A stretch of DNA of 64,000 nucleotides from Thermoplasmata archaeon (GTDB taxonomy: Archaea; Thermoplasmatota; Thermoplasmata; Thermoplasmatales; Thermoplasmataceae), in assembly GCA_021806235.1 (NCBI GenBank), contig JAJZXU010000028.1, positions 1-64,000 of the forward strand, read 5' to 3'. The notes under the pieces were generated by a model that was given only the letters and a program-made list of their open reading frames with translations, was not told the origin of the DNA and ran no database searches. A program made the position numbers and the translations under genes. This document shows positions 48,604-57,491 of this stretch, in pieces. The stretch's first letter is position 1; each line of letters starts with the position of its first letter.

Positions 48604-50001
48604 ATGTTAAAAAATTTTCCGGAGAAGGCTGAAACGTTGGAAAACATAATGGGAAGATTAAATGAATATGGCAGAAATGATATAAAAAATAGCAGGGGAA
48701 GATTATTCACATATTTTTATGATCCTGGAATAAATTTACTTGATCAGACCTCGGAAATATTCTTAAATTTTTATAATAGAAATGGAATGGATTATCACGC
48801 TTTTCCGAGTACACTGAAAATAGAAAATGATGTTATTGCCATGATGGGGTCATTAATGCACGGTAATGATAATTTGGCAGGTACATTCACAACAGGCGGC
48901 ACTGAAAGCATAATGCTCGCAGTCAAATCTGCACGTGATAAATATTTTGAAAACCATAACGGAATTCCAGAAATTGTTATGCCTGTTACGGCCCATCCAG
49001 CATTCGGAAAGGCTGCGGAATATTTAGGGTTAAAAACTGTTATATTGCCTGTGAATGATAAATATATAATGGATACTGAAGAATTAAAAAACAGTATAAA
49101 TGATAATACCGCAATGATAGTTGCATCTGCACCATCCTTTCCATATGGTGTAATTGACCCTGTAAAAGAAGCATCTGAAATAGCTATGGATAAAAACAAA
49201 TGGCTGCATGTGGATGCATGTGTTGGTGGCATGATACTGCCGTTTTTAAAGGATCTTGAAATAGGAATGGAGAAATTTGATTTTTCCCTGCCTGGAGTTA
49301 GTTCTATATCAATAGACTTACACAAATACGGTTTTACGCCCAAGGGTTCATCTGTAATTTTATATAAAAACAGGGAATTAAGAAAACACCAGATCTACGT
49401 TAATGCAAGATGGCCAGGATACCCCATGTCAAATTCCGGGTTACAGGCAACAAAATCCGCAGGCCCACTGGCAGGTACATGGGCAATTTTAAATTTTCTT
49501 GGAAGAAATGGCTATGATAAACTGGCAGAAAAAACGTTGAAGGCATATAGAATAATAAGTAAGGGAATAAGTTCCAGCGGGTTTAAAATTGTGGGAAAAC
49601 CAGATGCAACAATATTTGCATTCACCGGAGATAACATCTTTGACACCGGTGTAAAAATGATAGAAAATGGATGGTACCCACAGATCCAGCCTGCAAATGT
49701 AAAAATGGGCCTGCCACCTTCAGTGCATCTTAATATATGCCCCGTCCATTTAGAGGTTGCAGACGAATTTCTCGATACACTTAAGGCAATAAAAAATAAT
49801 AATCATAATACAGATGAAAATAAACTTGAAATGTTAAAATTAAAAAATAAATACGAAACTGTTGATAAGCTTGTGAAAATGATCAAGGAAGATAATAATA
49901 AAACAATTCTGTTCCACATACTGAGGAATTTTGATTACAATACAGGTGAGAACATCTTCAGGATTATCACGGATGAAGATTTTACAGCCTCAAAAAACTA
50001 A
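48604..50001 (+). CDS. PLP-dependent group II decarboxylase / sphingosine-1-phosphate lyase-like
   Basis: 465 residues, fold-type I. FTTGGTESIMLAV (95-107) binds the phosphate, H131 in VTAHPAFGKAAEY stacks on PLP, WLHVDACVGG holds D204 for the pyridine nitrogen, and SIDLHKYGF places the Schiff-base lysine at K241. The HVDACVGG and HKYG forms resemble the S1P-lyase and archaeal glutamate/tyrosine/aspartate decarboxylase group. The about 70-residue C-terminal extension (after IKNNN) is highly charged. Divergent from an APC permease. The exact amino acid or phospho-base cannot be read. Confidence 0.83.
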   Translation: MLKNFPEKAETLENIMGRLNEYGRNDIKNSRGRLFTYFYDPGINLLDQTSEIFLNFYNRNGMDYHAFPSTLKIENDVIAMMGSLMHGNDNLAGTFTTGGTESIMLAVKSARDKYFENHNGIPEIVMPVTAHPAFGKAAEYLGLKTVILPVNDKYIMDTEELKNSINDNTAMIVASAPSFPYGVIDPVKEASEIAMDKNKWLHVDACVGGMILPFLKDLEIGMEKFDFSLPGVSSISIDLHKYGFTPKGSSVILYKNRELRKHQIYVNARWPGYPMSNSGLQATKSAGPLAGTWAILNFLGRNGYDKLAEKTLKAYRIISKGISSSGFKIVGKPDATIFAFTGDNIFDTGVKMIENGWYPQIQPANVKMGLPPSVHLNICPVHLEVADEFLDTLKAIKNNNHNTDENKLEMLKLKNKYETVDKLVKMIKEDNNKTILFHILRNFDYNTGENIFRIITDEDFTASKN

Positions 50002-50040
50002 CAAATCAAATAATAAAAATTACCATATAATATATTTTAA

Positions 50041-50170
50041 TCTTCAGGAGCAATATATGCAACAGGGATTCATACCATAGTTCTGGGATTTATCTGTAAA
50101 TTCGGGCGTTAACCTTATTTTTGTTTTAAATGTCCTGTAATTTTCCTTTACATCATATTTTATGTATGGG
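50041..50170 (-). pseudogene. Deleted copy of the 55.2-55.6 kb locus
   Basis: Three blocks match the locus at 55.2-55.6 kb in order and orientation: aggagcaatatatgcaacag (50046; cf. 55209), catagttctgggatttatct (50076; cf. 55349) and ttttgttttaaatgtcctgt (50119; cf. 55524), the last continuing to about 50160. The DNA between the blocks in the other copy (about 110 and 140 bases) is missing. The minus-strand blocks are parts of the four-TM membrane protein gene; the first block reads in the plus direction as GAIYATGI with synonymous differences between the copies. Confidence 0.75.
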
Positions 50171-50189
50171 TTAAATTAAGCAGGTTGTT

Positions 50190-50972
50190 CTATCTGGCGG
50201 TATACCCATAATCCATTGTAAATACAGCACCGTTTACAGCATAAGCATTCCCGGAGCAGAGATATAATACAAGATTGGCAATGTCCCCCGGTTCTAGAAG
50301 TTTTTTAACCGGTGAGTCACGCATCAACACTTCGGAGATAACCTGTTCCTTTTTAACATTCATGATTTCTGCCTGACTTTTAATTTGTTTCTGTACCAGA
50401 CTGGTATTAACATATGTGGGAGCTATTGCATTACATGTTATGCCATGTAATATTCCCTCTAATGCAATAGCTTTTGTCATTCCAACCATTGCATGTTTGG
50501 CCGTTACATATGCAACTTTATTGGGTGAAGCCACCAATCCGTGTATAGAATCTATATTTATTATTCTCCCCCATTGCCTTTCCATCATTATTTTATAGGA
50601 ATATTTAGAAATGAGGAAAGCTGAAATTACCATTAAATTTATCATATTTTCAAATACATCATCCGGGAATTCATCCAGTGGTGCAACATGCTGGTAACCG
50701 GCATTGTTTATCAGAATATCAATCCTTCCAAATAAAGTGCCAGCTTTCTCCATAATGTATTCGCATTTTTTAATATCACTAAGATCAGCTTCAATAAATG
50801 CAAGATTGTGTTTTTCTGCCTGAAACTTCTTCCCCTCTTCTACATTTTTATCTATAATTATAACCCTATTGCCATTTTCTAAAAATGATTCAGCTATTGA
50901 TCTGCCTATACCCTCTGCCCCACCAGTTATTAAAACAACCCTATCTGGATTAATAAAATTATTATTTGCCAT
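50190..50972 (-). CDS. 3-hydroxybutyrate dehydrogenase (SDR)
   Basis: 260 residues. NAD site TGGAEGIGRS; the substrate-specific signature of the BDH group appears as NNAGYQHVAPLDEFPDDVF and IDSIHGLVASPNKVAYVTAKHAMVGMTKAIALEG, containing the catalytic Ser, Tyr and Lys; ITCNAIAPTYVNTSLVQKQI follows, and VNGAVFTMDYGYTAR ends it. It should interconvert 3-hydroxybutyrate and acetoacetate, the product of tyrosine breakdown elsewhere in this window. Adjacent upstream, divergently, is a zinc alcohol dehydrogenase. Confidence 0.88.
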   Translation of the reverse strand: MANNNFINPDRVVLITGGAEGIGRSIAESFLENGNRVIIIDKNVEEGKKFQAEKHNLAFIEADLSDIKKCEYIMEKAGTLFGRIDILINNAGYQHVAPLDEFPDDVFENMINLMVISAFLISKYSYKIMMERQWGRIINIDSIHGLVASPNKVAYVTAKHAMVGMTKAIALEGILHGITCNAIAPTYVNTSLVQKQIKSQAEIMNVKKEQVISEVLMRDSPVKKLLEPGDIANLVLYLCSGNAYAVNGAVFTMDYGYTAR

Positions 50973-51140
50973 ATTCCTATATAAGTATTATTTATACTTA
51001 AACATTTTTTACCTTACCACCCTGCAGATTTTACAGTATTTTCATAAAAAAGCTTAATACCGGTAATTAAGCAAAAATTATTGCCTTGAGAGTGTGTTTA
51101 TTAGGCACCACTGCGTAATGAATAGGTGTTGTGAGTTAAT

Positions 51141-51150
51141 TTTAAATACA
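51141..51150 (+). promoter_or_regulatory. TATA box of the alcohol dehydrogenase gene
   Basis: tttaaataca lies 19-28 bases ahead of ATG 51169, the distance for a leaderless transcript. It argues against the long N-terminal extension from 51094. Confidence 0.55.
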
Positions 51151-51168
51151 CTTACAATATATATTTTT

Positions 51169-52218
51169 ATGAAAGCCGCCAGATTAATTAAACAGGGAAA
51201 CGATCTTACCATTGCTGATGTTGAATTCTCCCAACCTAAAGGAAAGCAAGTACTCGTAAAAGTTAGGTCCGCTGGGGTATGCCATAGTGATGTTCATTAT
51301 AAAAATGGAAAATGGGGGGAGTATACACCAGAAAGTTTGGGTTTTTCACGACCATCCCTACCACTTACCCTTGGGCATGAAATTGCCGGAACTATTGAAG
51401 AGATAGGAGATGATGTAATGGGCTTAACACCAAACCAGCCTGTAGCAGTAAATCCATGGGAAGGTGAAGGACAGTGTTATTATTGTTCTATAGGTGAAGA
51501 GCAGATGTGTGATAACCCTCAAAGACTTGGTATAAACATTGATGGCGGATATGCGGAATATGTACTTGTTCCTGATAGTAGATATCTTAAGTTAATAAAG
51601 CATTTATCATATGACGATGCTGCGGTTTTAACCTGTTCAGGGGTAACAACGTATAGGGCAATAAAGGAAATTGGTATAGCACCAGATAAAAAATTTCTAA
51701 TTGTAGGTTCTGGTGGGGGTCTGGGTACTATGGCATTAAAAATTGGAAAAGTACTTGGCATAGGGGAACTGATAGGTGTTGATATCAATGACAAAGCTAT
51801 AGAGGCAACTAAAGAGGCTGGAGCGGATTTTGGAATAAATGCAATGTCAGAAAATGTGGAAAAGGAAGTTATGGATATTACAGATGGTCATGGAGTGGAT
51901 GGTATAATAGATCTGTCCAGTTCTCAAAAAACACTGGATGTATACCCAAAACTTCTATCTAAATTAGGAACATATATAATGGTAGGGCAGTTTGGTGCCC
52001 AATTAAATATGAATGCAGTAACTGCTGTTAGAAAAGCGATAAGATTTAAGGGTACCTATACTGGAAATCATAAGGACTTTGTGGAGGTCATAGATCTTGC
52101 AGAAAATAAACACATAAAACCCAATGTTAAGTATGTTGGCAATTTAGAGAAAGTTAATGAAGCCCTTAAAAACCTGGAGGATTTAAAAGTGTCAGGCAGG
52201 CAGGTTGTTAGGCCATAA
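51169..52218 (+). CDS. adh: Zinc-containing NAD(P)-dependent alcohol dehydrogenase
   Basis: 349 residues, much like the Sulfolobus enzyme. Catalytic zinc ligands C38 (GVCHSD), H70 and E71 (TLGHEIAG); structural zinc E100, C103, C106, C114 (EGQCYYCSIGEEQMCDNP), with Glu replacing the usual first Cys exactly as in the Sulfolobus enzyme. The nucleotide fold is VGSGGGLGTMALKI with a basic-poor loop after strand 2 (GVDINDKA), favouring NAD. It oxidises primary/secondary alcohols or reduces aldehydes. The ATG at 51169 fits both the TATA box and the conserved MKAARL start. Confidence 0.93.
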   Translation: MKAARLIKQGNDLTIADVEFSQPKGKQVLVKVRSAGVCHSDVHYKNGKWGEYTPESLGFSRPSLPLTLGHEIAGTIEEIGDDVMGLTPNQPVAVNPWEGEGQCYYCSIGEEQMCDNPQRLGINIDGGYAEYVLVPDSRYLKLIKHLSYDDAAVLTCSGVTTYRAIKEIGIAPDKKFLIVGSGGGLGTMALKIGKVLGIGELIGVDINDKAIEATKEAGADFGINAMSENVEKEVMDITDGHGVDGIIDLSSSQKTLDVYPKLLSKLGTYIMVGQFGAQLNMNAVTAVRKAIRFKGTYTGNHKDFVEVIDLAENKHIKPNVKYVGNLEKVNEALKNLEDLKVSGRQVVRP

Positions 52219-52916
52219 ATACAGAAATATCCTGTTTACTATTTTTTTTCTTCATAATACTGCTACACAATTTTTTGTATATGGAATTTCAAAAATATTG
52301 TCGTATATGTAAGTAAATAATAAACATAATATACTTTTCACCGTATTTTTAAAATAGAAATACCATATGTATTTTTATATTTTACCCCCAACTCCGTTCA
52401 TTTTATATGGCATGATATAATATTTTTAAATCCTGTTGTTACTACCTATTTTACTAATTTTGAGAATAAAAATTATTACACAACTATTTATATAAATAGT
52501 GTGTATATATTATATGATAATATTTCATATTGGACAATAAAGTATAATACTCAGAAGTATAATCCATTTTTCTGGATTCGGGCTCCTATCAAAAATCAAG
52601 AAATACTGATTAGAAGAACAACAAAACAGTGAGATTCAAAAAAGCAAATGAATCTATAATTGATCTAAATATAAACCCCGGCATGTTATGTAAAAAACGG
52701 TAAGTTAAGGTTTAATGGAATAATTTAGACAACAGCACTATGGCGGTCATTAACTGTTATCTTTTTCGAGTTGAAATTGAATTTTATAAGAAAAAAGATG
52801 TAAATTATCGGTTCCACACTGCAGAAATGCACAAAATTTCTAACAACGGCGATTGCCATAGTAACAATAGATATATTTAAGTATAGAATATAATTACTAC
52901 TTAAAATGGTGTTTTC
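52219..52916. other. 700-base gene-poor region with possible transposase relics
   Basis: It holds a hairpin (aatcca/tggatt, 52561-52578) and scattered protein-like frames, for example MAVINCYLFRVEIEFYKKKD from 52740 and IFLDSGSYQKSRNTD near 52568. FRVEIEF with following basic residues recalls the end of IS4/IS5-type transposases, but the match is weak. The promoter of the following MFS gene (tatatttaag near 52872) lies at its right end. Confidence 0.3.
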
Positions 52917-54335
52917 ATGAAAGAAAATAGTTATGATGAAAAGACGGCTATGTATATAGCGAGAGTTAATAGATTGCCAAAAAACGCCCTTAAGGCACCA
53001 ATAATTATAGCCCTGGCGTTTGGATATTTTATTGCATTATATGATGTAATTGATGTTGGACTTGCACTTCCATATATCACGCTTAGTGGCGTTTCATTGA
53101 CATCATCACAGGCATCTTTTATAGCATCTATGGGGTTATTTGGATATATTCCCGGTGCAATATTTCTGTCTATTTTAGCTGATAAGATTGGTAGAAAACC
53201 AGGACTGATGATAACTGCATCAATTACTGCTATAGGAAGCCTTGGAAATGCTTTTTCTATAAATTATTTAATGTTGGTAGTATTCAGATTTATAACAGGA
53301 ATGGGCATAGGTGGTGATTTAATATTAGTTATCGTGTATCTGGTTGAAATGGTACCTACCAAGGGAAGAGGACATTATGTAAACATAGTATATATAGTTG
53401 GATGGGCAGGTTTAGGCCTGGGGCCATTAATCGCTTCCGAAATAGTACTGTTAATTCCAGCTACTGGGTGGAGGATAGTATTTGCAATAGGCGGAGTTCT
53501 GGCGGTAATGGTTGTAGTAATAAGGGAAACTGCCCCAGAAACAGTAAGATTCCTTGGTGTTAAGAAAAGATATGATGAACTGGAAAAGGTAGTTTCTGAA
53601 ATGGAAAGAACAGCAATGAAGAAGGCACATATAACGTCATTGCCAGAACCAGTGCCTGATAAATTTACATACAGTGAACGAAAAAATCCTTTAAGTGTAT
53701 TTAAGGACAAAAAATATAGAAAGAGGATAATTGCAGTATTTATAACAATATTCTTCTTTTACTGGGGTGAATATCCATATCTAGCTTTGATGACAACCTA
53801 TACAAAAAGCGTTCTTCTCTATACTCCAGCACAGGAAAACACAGTAATATTATATTTTGGACTGGCAGGCATAGCAACATTCCTTGGAGCCATAGGCATA
53901 AGGCTGGTACTGGAAAAAATACACAGAGGAAAGCTTGTTACCTTTAGCAATGGTGTAGGCATGCTGCTGGGAATTGTAATTGTCGTGTACGGTGCAGTTA
54001 CTAGAAACCTGTTAATAATGTTTGTAGGAATGTTGCTAACAAACTTTATTGGAGTTGGATGGAGCAACCAGCTGAACTATTTAAATGGTTCAGAAAATGT
54101 TCCATCAGATGCACGTGCAACTGCGTTTTCACTTCAGGACGGGTTGGGTCATTTAGGGGCCGGAATCTCACTGCTTTTGCTGTTTCCATTAATTGCAGTT
54201 GTTGGAGGTTATGTAGGATGGATTATATACCAGGTACCAATGGTGATTGCGGCAATTGCCCTGATATTCATACTGCCTAATACTTTAAATAAAAACTTAG
54301 AAAATATAAATGAAGCGAGTGCGGCAGAAGAATAA
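52917..54335 (+). CDS. MFS transporter (metabolite:H+ symporter type)
   Basis: 472 residues, 12 spans, with a GGTG ribosome site (52908-52911). Motif A SILADKIGRKPGLM after TM2; RFITGMGIGGDLILVIVYLVEMVPTKGRG after TM4; a central cytosolic loop of about 60 residues with KKRYDELEKVVSEMERTAMKK. The C-terminal half has a PSDARATAFSLQDGLGHLGAG segment. Proton-coupled uptake of an organic acid or sugar is expected. It is the last intact gene before the second accessory zone. Confidence 0.85.
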   Translation: MKENSYDEKTAMYIARVNRLPKNALKAPIIIALAFGYFIALYDVIDVGLALPYITLSGVSLTSSQASFIASMGLFGYIPGAIFLSILADKIGRKPGLMITASITAIGSLGNAFSINYLMLVVFRFITGMGIGGDLILVIVYLVEMVPTKGRGHYVNIVYIVGWAGLGLGPLIASEIVLLIPATGWRIVFAIGGVLAVMVVVIRETAPETVRFLGVKKRYDELEKVVSEMERTAMKKAHITSLPEPVPDKFTYSERKNPLSVFKDKKYRKRIIAVFITIFFFYWGEYPYLALMTTYTKSVLLYTPAQENTVILYFGLAGIATFLGAIGIRLVLEKIHRGKLVTFSNGVGMLLGIVIVVYGAVTRNLLIMFVGMLLTNFIGVGWSNQLNYLNGSENVPSDARATAFSLQDGLGHLGAGISLLLLFPLIAVVGGYVGWIIYQVPMVIAAIALIFILPNTLNKNLENINEASAAEE

Positions 54336-54461
54336 TTTTTTATAAATATTTTTTAATTACAATATTTTTTGATGTTATAATTTTTTGTTATGTATCTATA
54401 GAAGTACTATATAATGTATGAACATATTCATGAAAATAGTAAAGTATATATATATAAATCA

Positions 54462-54983
54462 ATGAAAATAAGCAAGAAGAAATTATATACTTTATTTGCG
54501 ATATTGATTGTTGCTCTCCTGTCTTCAGCAGTATTTGCTTCGGTTATTATTAATGAAAGTTATAGTGCCAGTACTCAAACAGCTATAAACCCGTTTCAAT
54601 TAACACATGGACCAAATTATGCCACAGCAAACACTTTGGGTTTTACAGCACTTAAAAATGGAACCTCACCAACCATGAACACAATTACACTTGGGTATGT
54701 CAATAACGATAGCTCTGTAGAGCTTGTGGATGTTCTGGAAATCACAAATCATAGTAATGTGAAGAAACCAACATATATAGAACCGGGTGTTAGCAGCACA
54801 TCAGGTATTACATTTTATTACAACTCAACACTGTAACAACAACATATCCAACAACGGCCGATCTTGGAACACAAATAACAACAGCTACACAAATACAGGT
54901 AACATCTGGGGAGGCAATTTACCTATCAGCAAATGTAACTGGATCTGTTTACGACTCCTGTAACATTAACAATAACTTCCAGC
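54462..54983 (+). pseudogene. Broken secreted protein gene (TasA-like pilin type)
   Basis: From ATG 54462 the frame starts MKISKKKLYTLFAILIVALL with an FASVIINES cleavage region, a signal peptide, then an Asn/Thr-rich exported domain (TANTLGFTALKNGTSPTMNT). It stops at 54836, but after a one-base shift the same kind of sequence continues (TVTTTYPTTADLGTQITTAT, VTSGEAIYLSANVTGS), and a second shift gives TTPVTLTITSS up to the IS630 relic. The type II-like signal and beta-rich body suggest a TasA/camelysin or archaeal bundling-pilus subunit, but that is a guess. Confidence 0.6.
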
Positions 54984-55190
54984 AAACATGTAGGCTGGCT
55001 CAATATAGCAGAGATTGAGATCAATGCTATGGATATAGAATGCACAGGAAAAAGATTTGAATCCTATAAGGACCTTGAAAAAAATGTTACAGCGTGGCAG
55101 AAAACGAGAAATAGGAAGAAAGCAAAGATAAAATGGGCTTTCGCAAGGGAAAAAGCAGATCTAAAACTTTCAAAATATTATACAATATAA
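54975..55190 (+). mobile_element. C-terminal fragment of an IS630-family transposase
   Basis: A 71-codon frame holds the end of an IS630 (Tc1/mariner-like) transposase: HVGWLNIAEIEINAMDIECT, the last catalytic Glu in the LNIAEIE block, and FESYKDLEKNVTAWQKTRNR, then KIKWAFAREKADLKLSKYY and stop. The rest of the element is missing. It interrupts the tail of the secreted-protein gene; a short frame after it (GAIYATGIYTLSTC, 55210-55251) may be that gene's true C-terminus. Confidence 0.75.
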
Positions 55191-55331
55191 TTAATAGGTC
55201 ATAACACTAGGAGCGATATATGCAACAGGAATTTACACATTGTCCACTTGTTAATTTATTTCATATTTTCTCTATATTATTAAGATCCATAGTTTGAACC
55301 TGACTGTTTCAGTTTTTTGGAATCACCTTAA

Positions 55332-55727
55332 TTACTTTTTTGTTTTGTACATAGTTCTGAGCTTTATCTGTAAATGCATTAGATAGGCAGTTCCAATTAC
55401 AATGGTTGAAATCATAATACCACCAAGCATACCAATTAATATCTTTGACCCTATAGGCATAAATGGAAAGATGCCCATTATGAACATGAAGGGGGATTGA
55501 ACAAATGTGGCTGTTAACCCTATTTTTGTTTTAAATGTCCTGTAATCTTCCTTTACATTATATTTTTTTAATAACCTGAAGCCATATATGGAAGAGAATA
55601 GTGGTATTAGAATTCCAATAGAAAGCCCTATGATTGTGGCCGTCATAGCAAATAGTAATATGACTGTCATGACAAAAAAAACATAAGAAATCGTGGATAT
55701 TAAATTTATTTTTTTAATAATTTCCAT
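55332..55727 (-). CDS. Small four-span membrane protein, candidate immunity protein
   Basis: 131 residues with four hydrophobic spans (about 10-30, 33-50, 72-92, 97-117), short loops and a basic C-terminus (QIKLRTMYKTKK). No enzyme motif and no family recognised. It begins 9 bases after the stop of the secreted protein gene on the same strand, so the two are co-transcribed. Small multi-span proteins in this place are often immunity proteins to a membrane-active toxin. Fragments of a second copy lie at 50041-50170. Confidence 0.65.
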   Translation of the reverse strand: MEIIKKINLISTISYVFFVMTVILLFAMTATIIGLSIGILIPLFSSIYGFRLLKKYNVKEDYRTFKTKIGLTATFVQSPFMFIMGIFPFMPIGSKILIGMLGGIMISTIVIGTAYLMHLQIKLRTMYKTKK

Positions 55728-55736
55728 ATAATCACC

Positions 55737-56576
55737 TTAATTGAAAGGTATATAAAAATTTCCCTTATATAAAGTTATAATGCTTGTTTCATAGTTAGTT
55801 AAATCTGAAGGCACCTGAGTAGATGGGGCATTAAGACCCATAGAATAAACACCAGACAGCCAGGTGTTGGCCTGGTAATAGTATATACCATTGAGTCCAC
55901 CGGAATAGTCCAGTATTTGTATTATACTAACTCCCACAACTATTATCCCACCAACCAACATTCCTACAGGTCCACCCAATTTCATCAAAAATCCAGCTCC
56001 ACCACCAATAATGGCAAGAAGGATTTCCGTTGTTGTCTGATCAAATGCCAGTGAACGACCACCACTTCCCTTTCCATAAGTGGCATAGAGATCTACACAA
56101 ACACCCGGAGTGGCAGATGAACTGTCAGCTGTTATTGCTGTGGCATTATTTTTACCCCTGCTGGATGTATTATTTATTTTTGTTATATTATAATTATTAT
56201 TTTTTGAATATATTGGTATTACTGTTAAATTTGTGTTATTATCCTTTGTGCCGTTTATTAAAAATGCCTGGTGTGTCAGTGTGCCATTAATGTATCCATT
56301 TACTTCCATTGCAGTAATATTATCTGTTCCACTATAATAATTATATTTTAATGTTATATTGGATGATGTATTTTTTCCATTTGTGTCAGGGCTATTAAAA
56401 ACATATGTTTTATTTGCATTTGAAACATCCTTTAATCCGTACTTATTGATAACTGTGTGTGCATTGTAATGCCTGCTACTGTCTTTTCTGTCCACATCAT
56501 TATTTATATATAAAATAGATGCAAAACTTGATACTATCACTATTAACGTTATAACAATCACCACTATCCTTTTCAT
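55737..56576 (-). CDS. Secreted protein with Gly-rich membrane hairpin, candidate toxin
   Basis: 279 residues. Signal segment MKRIVVIVITLIVIVSSFAS, a roughly 120-residue Asn/Thr/Ser-rich propeptide-like part (about 15 N-x-S/T sites), then after ATPGVCVDLYATYGKGSGGR a strongly hydrophobic glycine-rich stretch at about 188-226 (IIGGGAGFLMKLGGPVGMLV, GGIIVVGVSIIQIL), and an aromatic tail (YYYQANTWLSGVY). The Gly-rich hairpin resembles pore-forming bacteriocins. Only one Cys, no catalytic motif. Bicistronic with the four-span protein. No homolog recalled, so the toxin role is inference. Confidence 0.65.
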   Translation of the reverse strand: MKRIVVIVITLIVIVSSFASILYINNDVDRKDSSRHYNAHTVINKYGLKDVSNANKTYVFNSPDTNGKNTSSNITLKYNYYSGTDNITAMEVNGYINGTLTHQAFLINGTKDNNTNLTVIPIYSKNNNYNITKINNTSSRGKNNATAITADSSSATPGVCVDLYATYGKGSGGRSLAFDQTTTEILLAIIGGGAGFLMKLGGPVGMLVGGIIVVGVSIIQILDYSGGLNGIYYYQANTWLSGVYSMGLNAPSTQVPSDLTNYETSIITLYKGNFYIPFN

Positions 56577-56610: not shown

Positions 56611-57092
56611 TATTTCTATAAACATATTATTTTATGTCATTTTCTGTTAAGTTATTATTTAAGGATAGCTATAATGTAAATAAATTATTTAAGCATGAAA
56701 TAAAGTTAAATATTTCTAAATAATAATTTTATATTTGAATGAGTGAATATATCGTTATAGTGTGTTAAAATTGCTGTAAAAATTAAAAAAATCACATAAC
56801 AGGTGATTCTCTACGGCATAAGAACGAAACAGACAACATAATAATATCTAAACATTATAATGGAGGGGACAGAAATACAGTTATTATCAATGCCATATAA
56901 ATAGATTGAGGATATAACTTGCTCAGTAATGATTCAGAAACAGAGATAGTGGTGTGTTACATCTAATTTGTTACACTTTTAACTTTTCTAGCTGGAGGTC
57001 TACTTAACCCGGTATGGGGATGGGCGCGGGAGAAAACATTATTAATATTAGTTATATAATTACACATTCACTGGTAGATATAAGTGAAAATG
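56611..57092. other. Gene-poor accessory DNA
   Basis: About 480 bases with no protein-like frame. Near-direct repeats gtgtgttac/ttgttacac lie at 56951-56979. The right part is G+C-richer (ggtatggggatgggcgcggg, 57010) and leads into the IS605 relic. Confidence 0.4.
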
Positions 57093-57240
57093 GTCTGGTT
57101 GAATGTTGCTCCATGCGTGCCTGCATCCGTGAAATTGGGTGGCTTGTATGGACGAGAGAGAACTCCAGGACTGTGGGGATTCTATCAGCAATCGTTGAAG
57201 CAGGAAGCCCCTTTAGACAGACAGTGAAGGAAGTCGCGGG
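57093..57240 (+). mobile_element. Right-end relic of an IS200/IS605 tnpB element
   Basis: One frame (57093-57227) ends VKLGGLYGRERTPGLWGFYQ then QSLKQEAPLDRQ and TGA, like the C-terminal tail of archaeal TnpB/OrfB proteins (...KQEAP... near the end). The overlapping DNA gaagcaggaagccccttt ... gcgggga resembles the right end of such elements, which is also the omega-RNA 3' region; cccc (57208) and gggg (57237) could pair. No zinc-finger or RuvC part remains. Confidence 0.45.
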
Positions 57241-57491
57241 GAATTAATTAATAAATTAATCCTTTATTTCACTATAAATGATGTGATAAATAGTTTAATA
57301 TATTCATTCTATTTTATAAACATTGATCGGCAATAGCACATATAACATAATTTTTAATAATTAATTATCTAAATAATTTCAAATTGTTAATTACCCAAAA
57401 TTTAGAGGGTACAGCTCAGTTTAAAATTTACAGAAAATAATGCAACTATCTGCAACAAATATTATTATATCAATTTCCAATATATACATAT

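Follow-up and report, generated by a model that had tools for sequence, protein, structure and literature searches.

Halocin C8-type archaeocins are exported archaeal proteins that have a hydrophobic portion and for which a role in self-protection has been proposed. The T7SS of S. aureus has tandem immunity paralogues, namely esaG (for EsaD) and tsaI (for the membrane-depolarising TspA), some of which are pseudogenes, and both duplication and loss have been described for these paralogues (PMC9484751). Here we describe a comparable arrangement in a 64-kb stretch from an acidophilic archaeon of the genus Ferroplasma (the window, i.e. the whole DNA analysed), which is part of a 1.93-Mb draft genome (G000). 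Downstream of a putative exported toxin gene, and in the same orientation, this window carries an extra copy of the adjacent small membrane-protein gene, now 5 kb off and strongly decayed.

The intact locus lies on the minus strand. It comprises a gene for a 279-aa exported protein (55737..56576), the putative toxin, with N-terminal and Gly-rich hydrophobic segments, and a gene for a 131-aa membrane protein with hydrophobic segments (55332..55727), the putative immunity gene. A blastn comparison of positions 50000-50300 with the 64-kb window returned, as best non-self matches, three collinear plus/plus blocks within 50046-50161 that match 55209-55566: 50108-50161 with 55513-55566 (51/54 identical, 94%, E = 8e-19), 50076-50101 with 55350-55375 (24/26 identical, 92%, E = 3e-5) and 50046-50070 with 55209-55233 (23/25 identical, 92%, E = 1e-4). 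The original prediction of three blocks corresponding in order and orientation to the locus at 55.2-55.6 kb was thereby confirmed. Ungapped extension lengthened the outer matches to 50098-50161 / 55503-55566 (89%) and 50046-50075 / 55209-55238 (26/30, 87%). We name the relic blocks, all on the minus strand, A (50046..50075), B (50076..50101) and C (50098..50161). The membrane gene is the source of block B, which copies its C-terminal codons, and of block C, which copies its middle. Block A copies the 3' flank of the gene, about 94-123 bp past its stop; the corresponding block A of the intact locus (55209..55238, minus strand) was defined by blastn, ungapped extension and comparison with the genome G002. 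Relative to the intact locus the relic lacks two internal stretches, which had been put at 110 and 140 bases and measure 111 bp and about 127-137 bp.

The E values of the two short blocks are modest when taken alone and would be compatible with chance similarity of AT-rich DNA. The long block and its collinear chain with the others argue against this: the 188-bp intergenic region reached a chained score of 222 against 55100-55800, above all of 2000 dinucleotide shuffles (mean 104, maximum 184). Chance similarity was thus ruled out by the shuffles, and we give it practically no weight.

The relic is located between the stop of a pyridoxal-dependent decarboxylase gene (48604..50001, plus strand; Pfam PF00282, E = 2.6e-27; 98% identical orthologue in G002) and the stop, at 50190, of a short-chain dehydrogenase (SDR) gene. 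What can be seen of it derives solely from the 131-aa membrane gene, of which it covers a part, and from the flank 3' of that gene. The view that the toxin/immunity locus had been duplicated or moved therefore holds for the membrane gene with its 3' flank and does not extend to the toxin gene, of which tblastn and blastn gave no significant trace in 49.9-55.2 kb. If the whole exported/membrane locus had nevertheless been duplicated or moved, the relic would be its last piece; the SDR gene cuts the relic at the toxin-proximal side, so that a toxin copy could have been lost there. The lack of any toxin-gene piece in this interval, together with the observation that elsewhere the membrane gene alone is duplicated, makes such an event unlikely in our view. 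The relic gene lacks its 5' half, so that the original duplicate may have been the gene alone or the whole pair.

The relic reads KYDVKENYRTFKTKIRLTP, and the intact membrane gene reads KYNVKEDYRTFKTKIGLTA. All three DNA changes in the 54-bp core of block C are at first codon positions and change the amino acid. The spacing from C to B differs between relic and gene by a non-multiple of three, so that the reading frame of the relic is broken. In addition to its similarity to an intact gene, evident from the long block and from the chained score, the relic thus displays lost coding capacity: it bears two internal deletions, its blocks C and B are in different frames and the 5' half is absent. 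Judged by these features it is a pseudogene, the decayed second copy that had been proposed to lie near the decarboxylase, and most likely has no present function. A functional role as antisense RNA would have the decarboxylase read-through transcript pair over 54 nt with the membrane-gene mRNA (51/54 nt complementary; computed duplex energy -69.2 kcal/mol), and if true, control of the intact immunity gene would tie immunity to amino-acid or acid metabolism. However, any duplicate read inverted shows such complementarity, both partners are absent from G002, and there was no Rfam match; we regard this role as very improbable.

Of about 110 positions, 9 (8%) are different between the two copies. 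Intergenic DNA of G000 is mostly 6-10% different from that of G002, with one 54-bp stretch at 2%, and at the four-fold sites of the decarboxylase the two genomes have diverged by 9.6%. Given that the divergence of the copies is close to that of intergenic DNA between the two genomes, the duplication appears to be roughly as old as the species split, an age estimate that refers to the well-preserved blocks, which are the measurable ones.

Block A had also been suggested to be coding, as GAIYATGI on the plus strand, from a preponderance of third-position differences. Over its 30 bp the two versions differ at four positions, three of which share one codon phase, as expected by chance with p of about 1/3. 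Both differences within GAIYATGI are synonymous there, and equally so when the opposite strand is read as IPVAYIAP. Stops lie a few codons upstream in the plus-strand frame, and no start codon (ATG, GTG or TTG) occurs in it in the sequence. With a phase bias that is not significant, no start and stops just upstream, we rejected block A as a coding fragment. Its 20-base core occurs twice in the window (expected 0.01) and, across ten genomes of the genus, only at these two sites and once in G002; a dispersed element is ruled out by so few sites. A two-mismatch match to the core in G001 falls within a leuC-like gene and appears fortuitous.

An intact copy downstream of the decarboxylase was looked for in one sister species, G002, which has one flank block only at this position. 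G002 is collinear with the window at about 95% as far as 50069 and then from 57425 onwards; missing from it are the intervening 7.4 kb, which in the window hold the SDR, ADH and MFS genes, an IS630-like relic and the exported/membrane pair. The order in G002 is decarboxylase, single block A, 217-aa gene, and the block A of the relic has the same left context there, right after the decarboxylase. The left flank of this single block A matches copy 1 (decarboxylase side) and its right flank matches copy 2, indicating that block A is old at the site. The extra DNA together with the duplicate may have been a gain in the window lineage or a loss in G002; a deletion in G002, where block A stands without the membrane gene, could explain part of the pattern.

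The cargo between the two copies (50190..54335) consists of the SDR gene (50190-50972, minus strand), a zinc alcohol dehydrogenase gene (ADH; 51094-52218, plus strand) and an MFS transporter gene (52917-54335, plus strand), all assigned by Pfam. No DNA-level counterpart of these genes was seen in G002, and their matches in G003 are at about 67-69%; no plasmid or phage genes were recognised among the cargo. For the G002 stretch that replaces the extra DNA, no other copy was found in the genus beyond a 21-base match. A truncated IS630-like element (54984..55210, plus strand), assigned to IS630 by eye and without a Pfam match, comprises a transposase C-terminus and the right end, and ends exactly at the start of the intact copy's block A. 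Related copies in G000:C33 and C19 (85-91% identical) and in G002:C37 (80%) stop at the same base.

An integration by single crossover could have produced this layout: circular or incoming DNA with the cargo and a membrane-gene copy would have recombined with the copy already resident, so that the cargo came to be flanked by one copy on either side. This origin would suit both the position of the cargo, which lies between direct copies and has no DNA counterpart in G002, the closest genome, and the mixed flanks of the single block A in G002. The cargo, however, is devoid of recognised plasmid or phage genes, the IS630-like relic at one junction may have moved or removed DNA, and a tandem duplication followed by insertion fits the same data equally well. 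We hold single-crossover integration to be a doubtful, if conceivable, origin of the relic.

Three further observations concern the window. A 140-aa ORF of exported type at 54414-54963 seems to be continued in another frame and could be a frameshifted gene that the IS630-like element has cut. The ADH-MFS intergenic region at 52390-52714 resembles (71-77%) G000:C16:1659-2070 and G002:C22:54769-55181, near another exported-protein locus, and is perhaps a small dispersed repeat. Between the exported-protein and 217-aa genes, a 77-aa ORF at 57014-57247 resembles, as judged by eye, the 3' end of an insertion sequence.

We then considered the family to which the intact pair belongs. Within the taxonomic family, 15 of 77 genomes gave matches to the 279-aa protein, and its relatives share two hydrophobic segments, one N-terminal and one Gly-rich, as well as conserved motifs (YSKSGNYNIT-like and GGxNGV). 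The family members that were read are followed by a small same-strand ORF (about 70-170 aa) that encodes hydrophobic segments and overlaps the exported gene or starts within about 50 bp of it (195 bp at G000:C16). Several groups can be distinguished among these small proteins, and similarity from one group to another is low; the 131-aa protein itself has no Pfam or PADLOC match and no relative in 30-31 related genomes, where only the gene itself and the relic were found. At G000:C25 and G002:C52, the leader of the window protein is also carried by a protein of about 410 aa that is different in the rest of its sequence. At the loci of these longer proteins, L062:2898-4964 (G000:C25; followed by 151- and 100-aa ORFs) and L063:2658-4259 (G002:C52; followed by a 105-aa ORF), the small membrane ORFs are related and number one or two per locus. 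A further copy of the exported-protein gene, L061 (G000:C2:15555-16355), has in-frame stops, indicative of a pseudogene, and precedes several small hydrophobic ORFs. The match at G002:C37 adjoins a 308-aa exported-type protein and a 66-aa membrane ORF, and the similarity there is at most weak. In G007:C44 and G005:C14, the sequences that match parts of the locus sit at unrelated genes and were set aside, as was a virus origin, the viral contigs searched containing no relatives of the exported or the membrane protein.

A modular exported protein with a variable neighbour gene, as in polymorphic toxin/immunity loci, is therefore present. No recognisable toxin domain or known fold was detected by family or PDB matching, and the AlphaFold model of the exported protein was unusable (mean pLDDT 45.8). 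With an exported protein and a variable membrane protein side by side at about a dozen loci, a toxin/immunity label for the parent locus is plausible, and the intact pair most likely represents a putative membrane-acting exported protein with its cognate membrane immunity protein.

Tandem copies of the downstream membrane gene occur at three further loci: in G001 (73 and 76 aa, 76% DNA identity), in G000:C25 (the 151- and 100-aa genes, 73% DNA identity) and in G041, where a 96-aa membrane gene is accompanied by a truncated 55-aa copy (46% aa identity). The latter locus, L120:862-2094 (G041:C117), also holds a relative of the exported protein and presents a decaying extra immunity-type gene in another genus. 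The relic in the window would be a fourth such case, more decayed and parted from its source by cargo. We thus consider it probable that the relic is what remains of a tandem duplicate of the immunity-type membrane gene and its 3' flank, split by cargo and subsequently decayed. Because none of the genomes compared represents a strain with two intact copies, the tandem duplication is one that we infer. In this sequence of events, the membrane gene and flank would have been duplicated head to tail, as at the other loci of the group, and the foreign cargo (SDR, ADH, MFS) would have been inserted between the copies or have arrived with one of them by a single crossover. There would have followed the changes that can be read today: the decarboxylase-side copy has lost about 111 bp and 127-137 bp as well as everything upstream of its middle, is frameshifted and bears amino-acid-changing substitutions, and the IS630-like element has come to end at the flank block of the intact copy. 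Spare tandem immunity genes might offer protection against variant toxins and be quickly gained and lost.

Taken by itself, the relic of the gene is an ordinary one. Seen alongside the other tandem copies, it is suggestive of gain and loss of small membrane-gene copies in these archaeal exported/membrane pairs, as is known of immunity genes in bacteria, and this turnover lends circumstantial support to a toxin-immunity reading of such pairs in Ferroplasma and its family, on which the literature searched held nothing specific. The parent locus belongs to a little-described family of possible toxin-immunity pairs of archaea. It differs from the halocin C8 type in having no database family link to it and in that protection would come from a separate membrane gene. 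Similar to polymorphic toxin systems (PMC3482391), diverse exported proteins are each followed by a different small protein, and one leader is found on at least two different bodies; unlike in those systems, no known toxin domain was recognised, and the neighbours in the window family are small membrane proteins. Compared with esaG and tsaI of S. aureus, the window locus is archaeal, its relic lies about 5 kb away across cargo, the likeness is one of arrangement and the toxin is putative. As with these genes, extra copies, pseudogenes included, are found just downstream of an exported (here putative) toxin gene, and TsaI is a membrane protein like the 131-aa protein of the window (PMC9484751).
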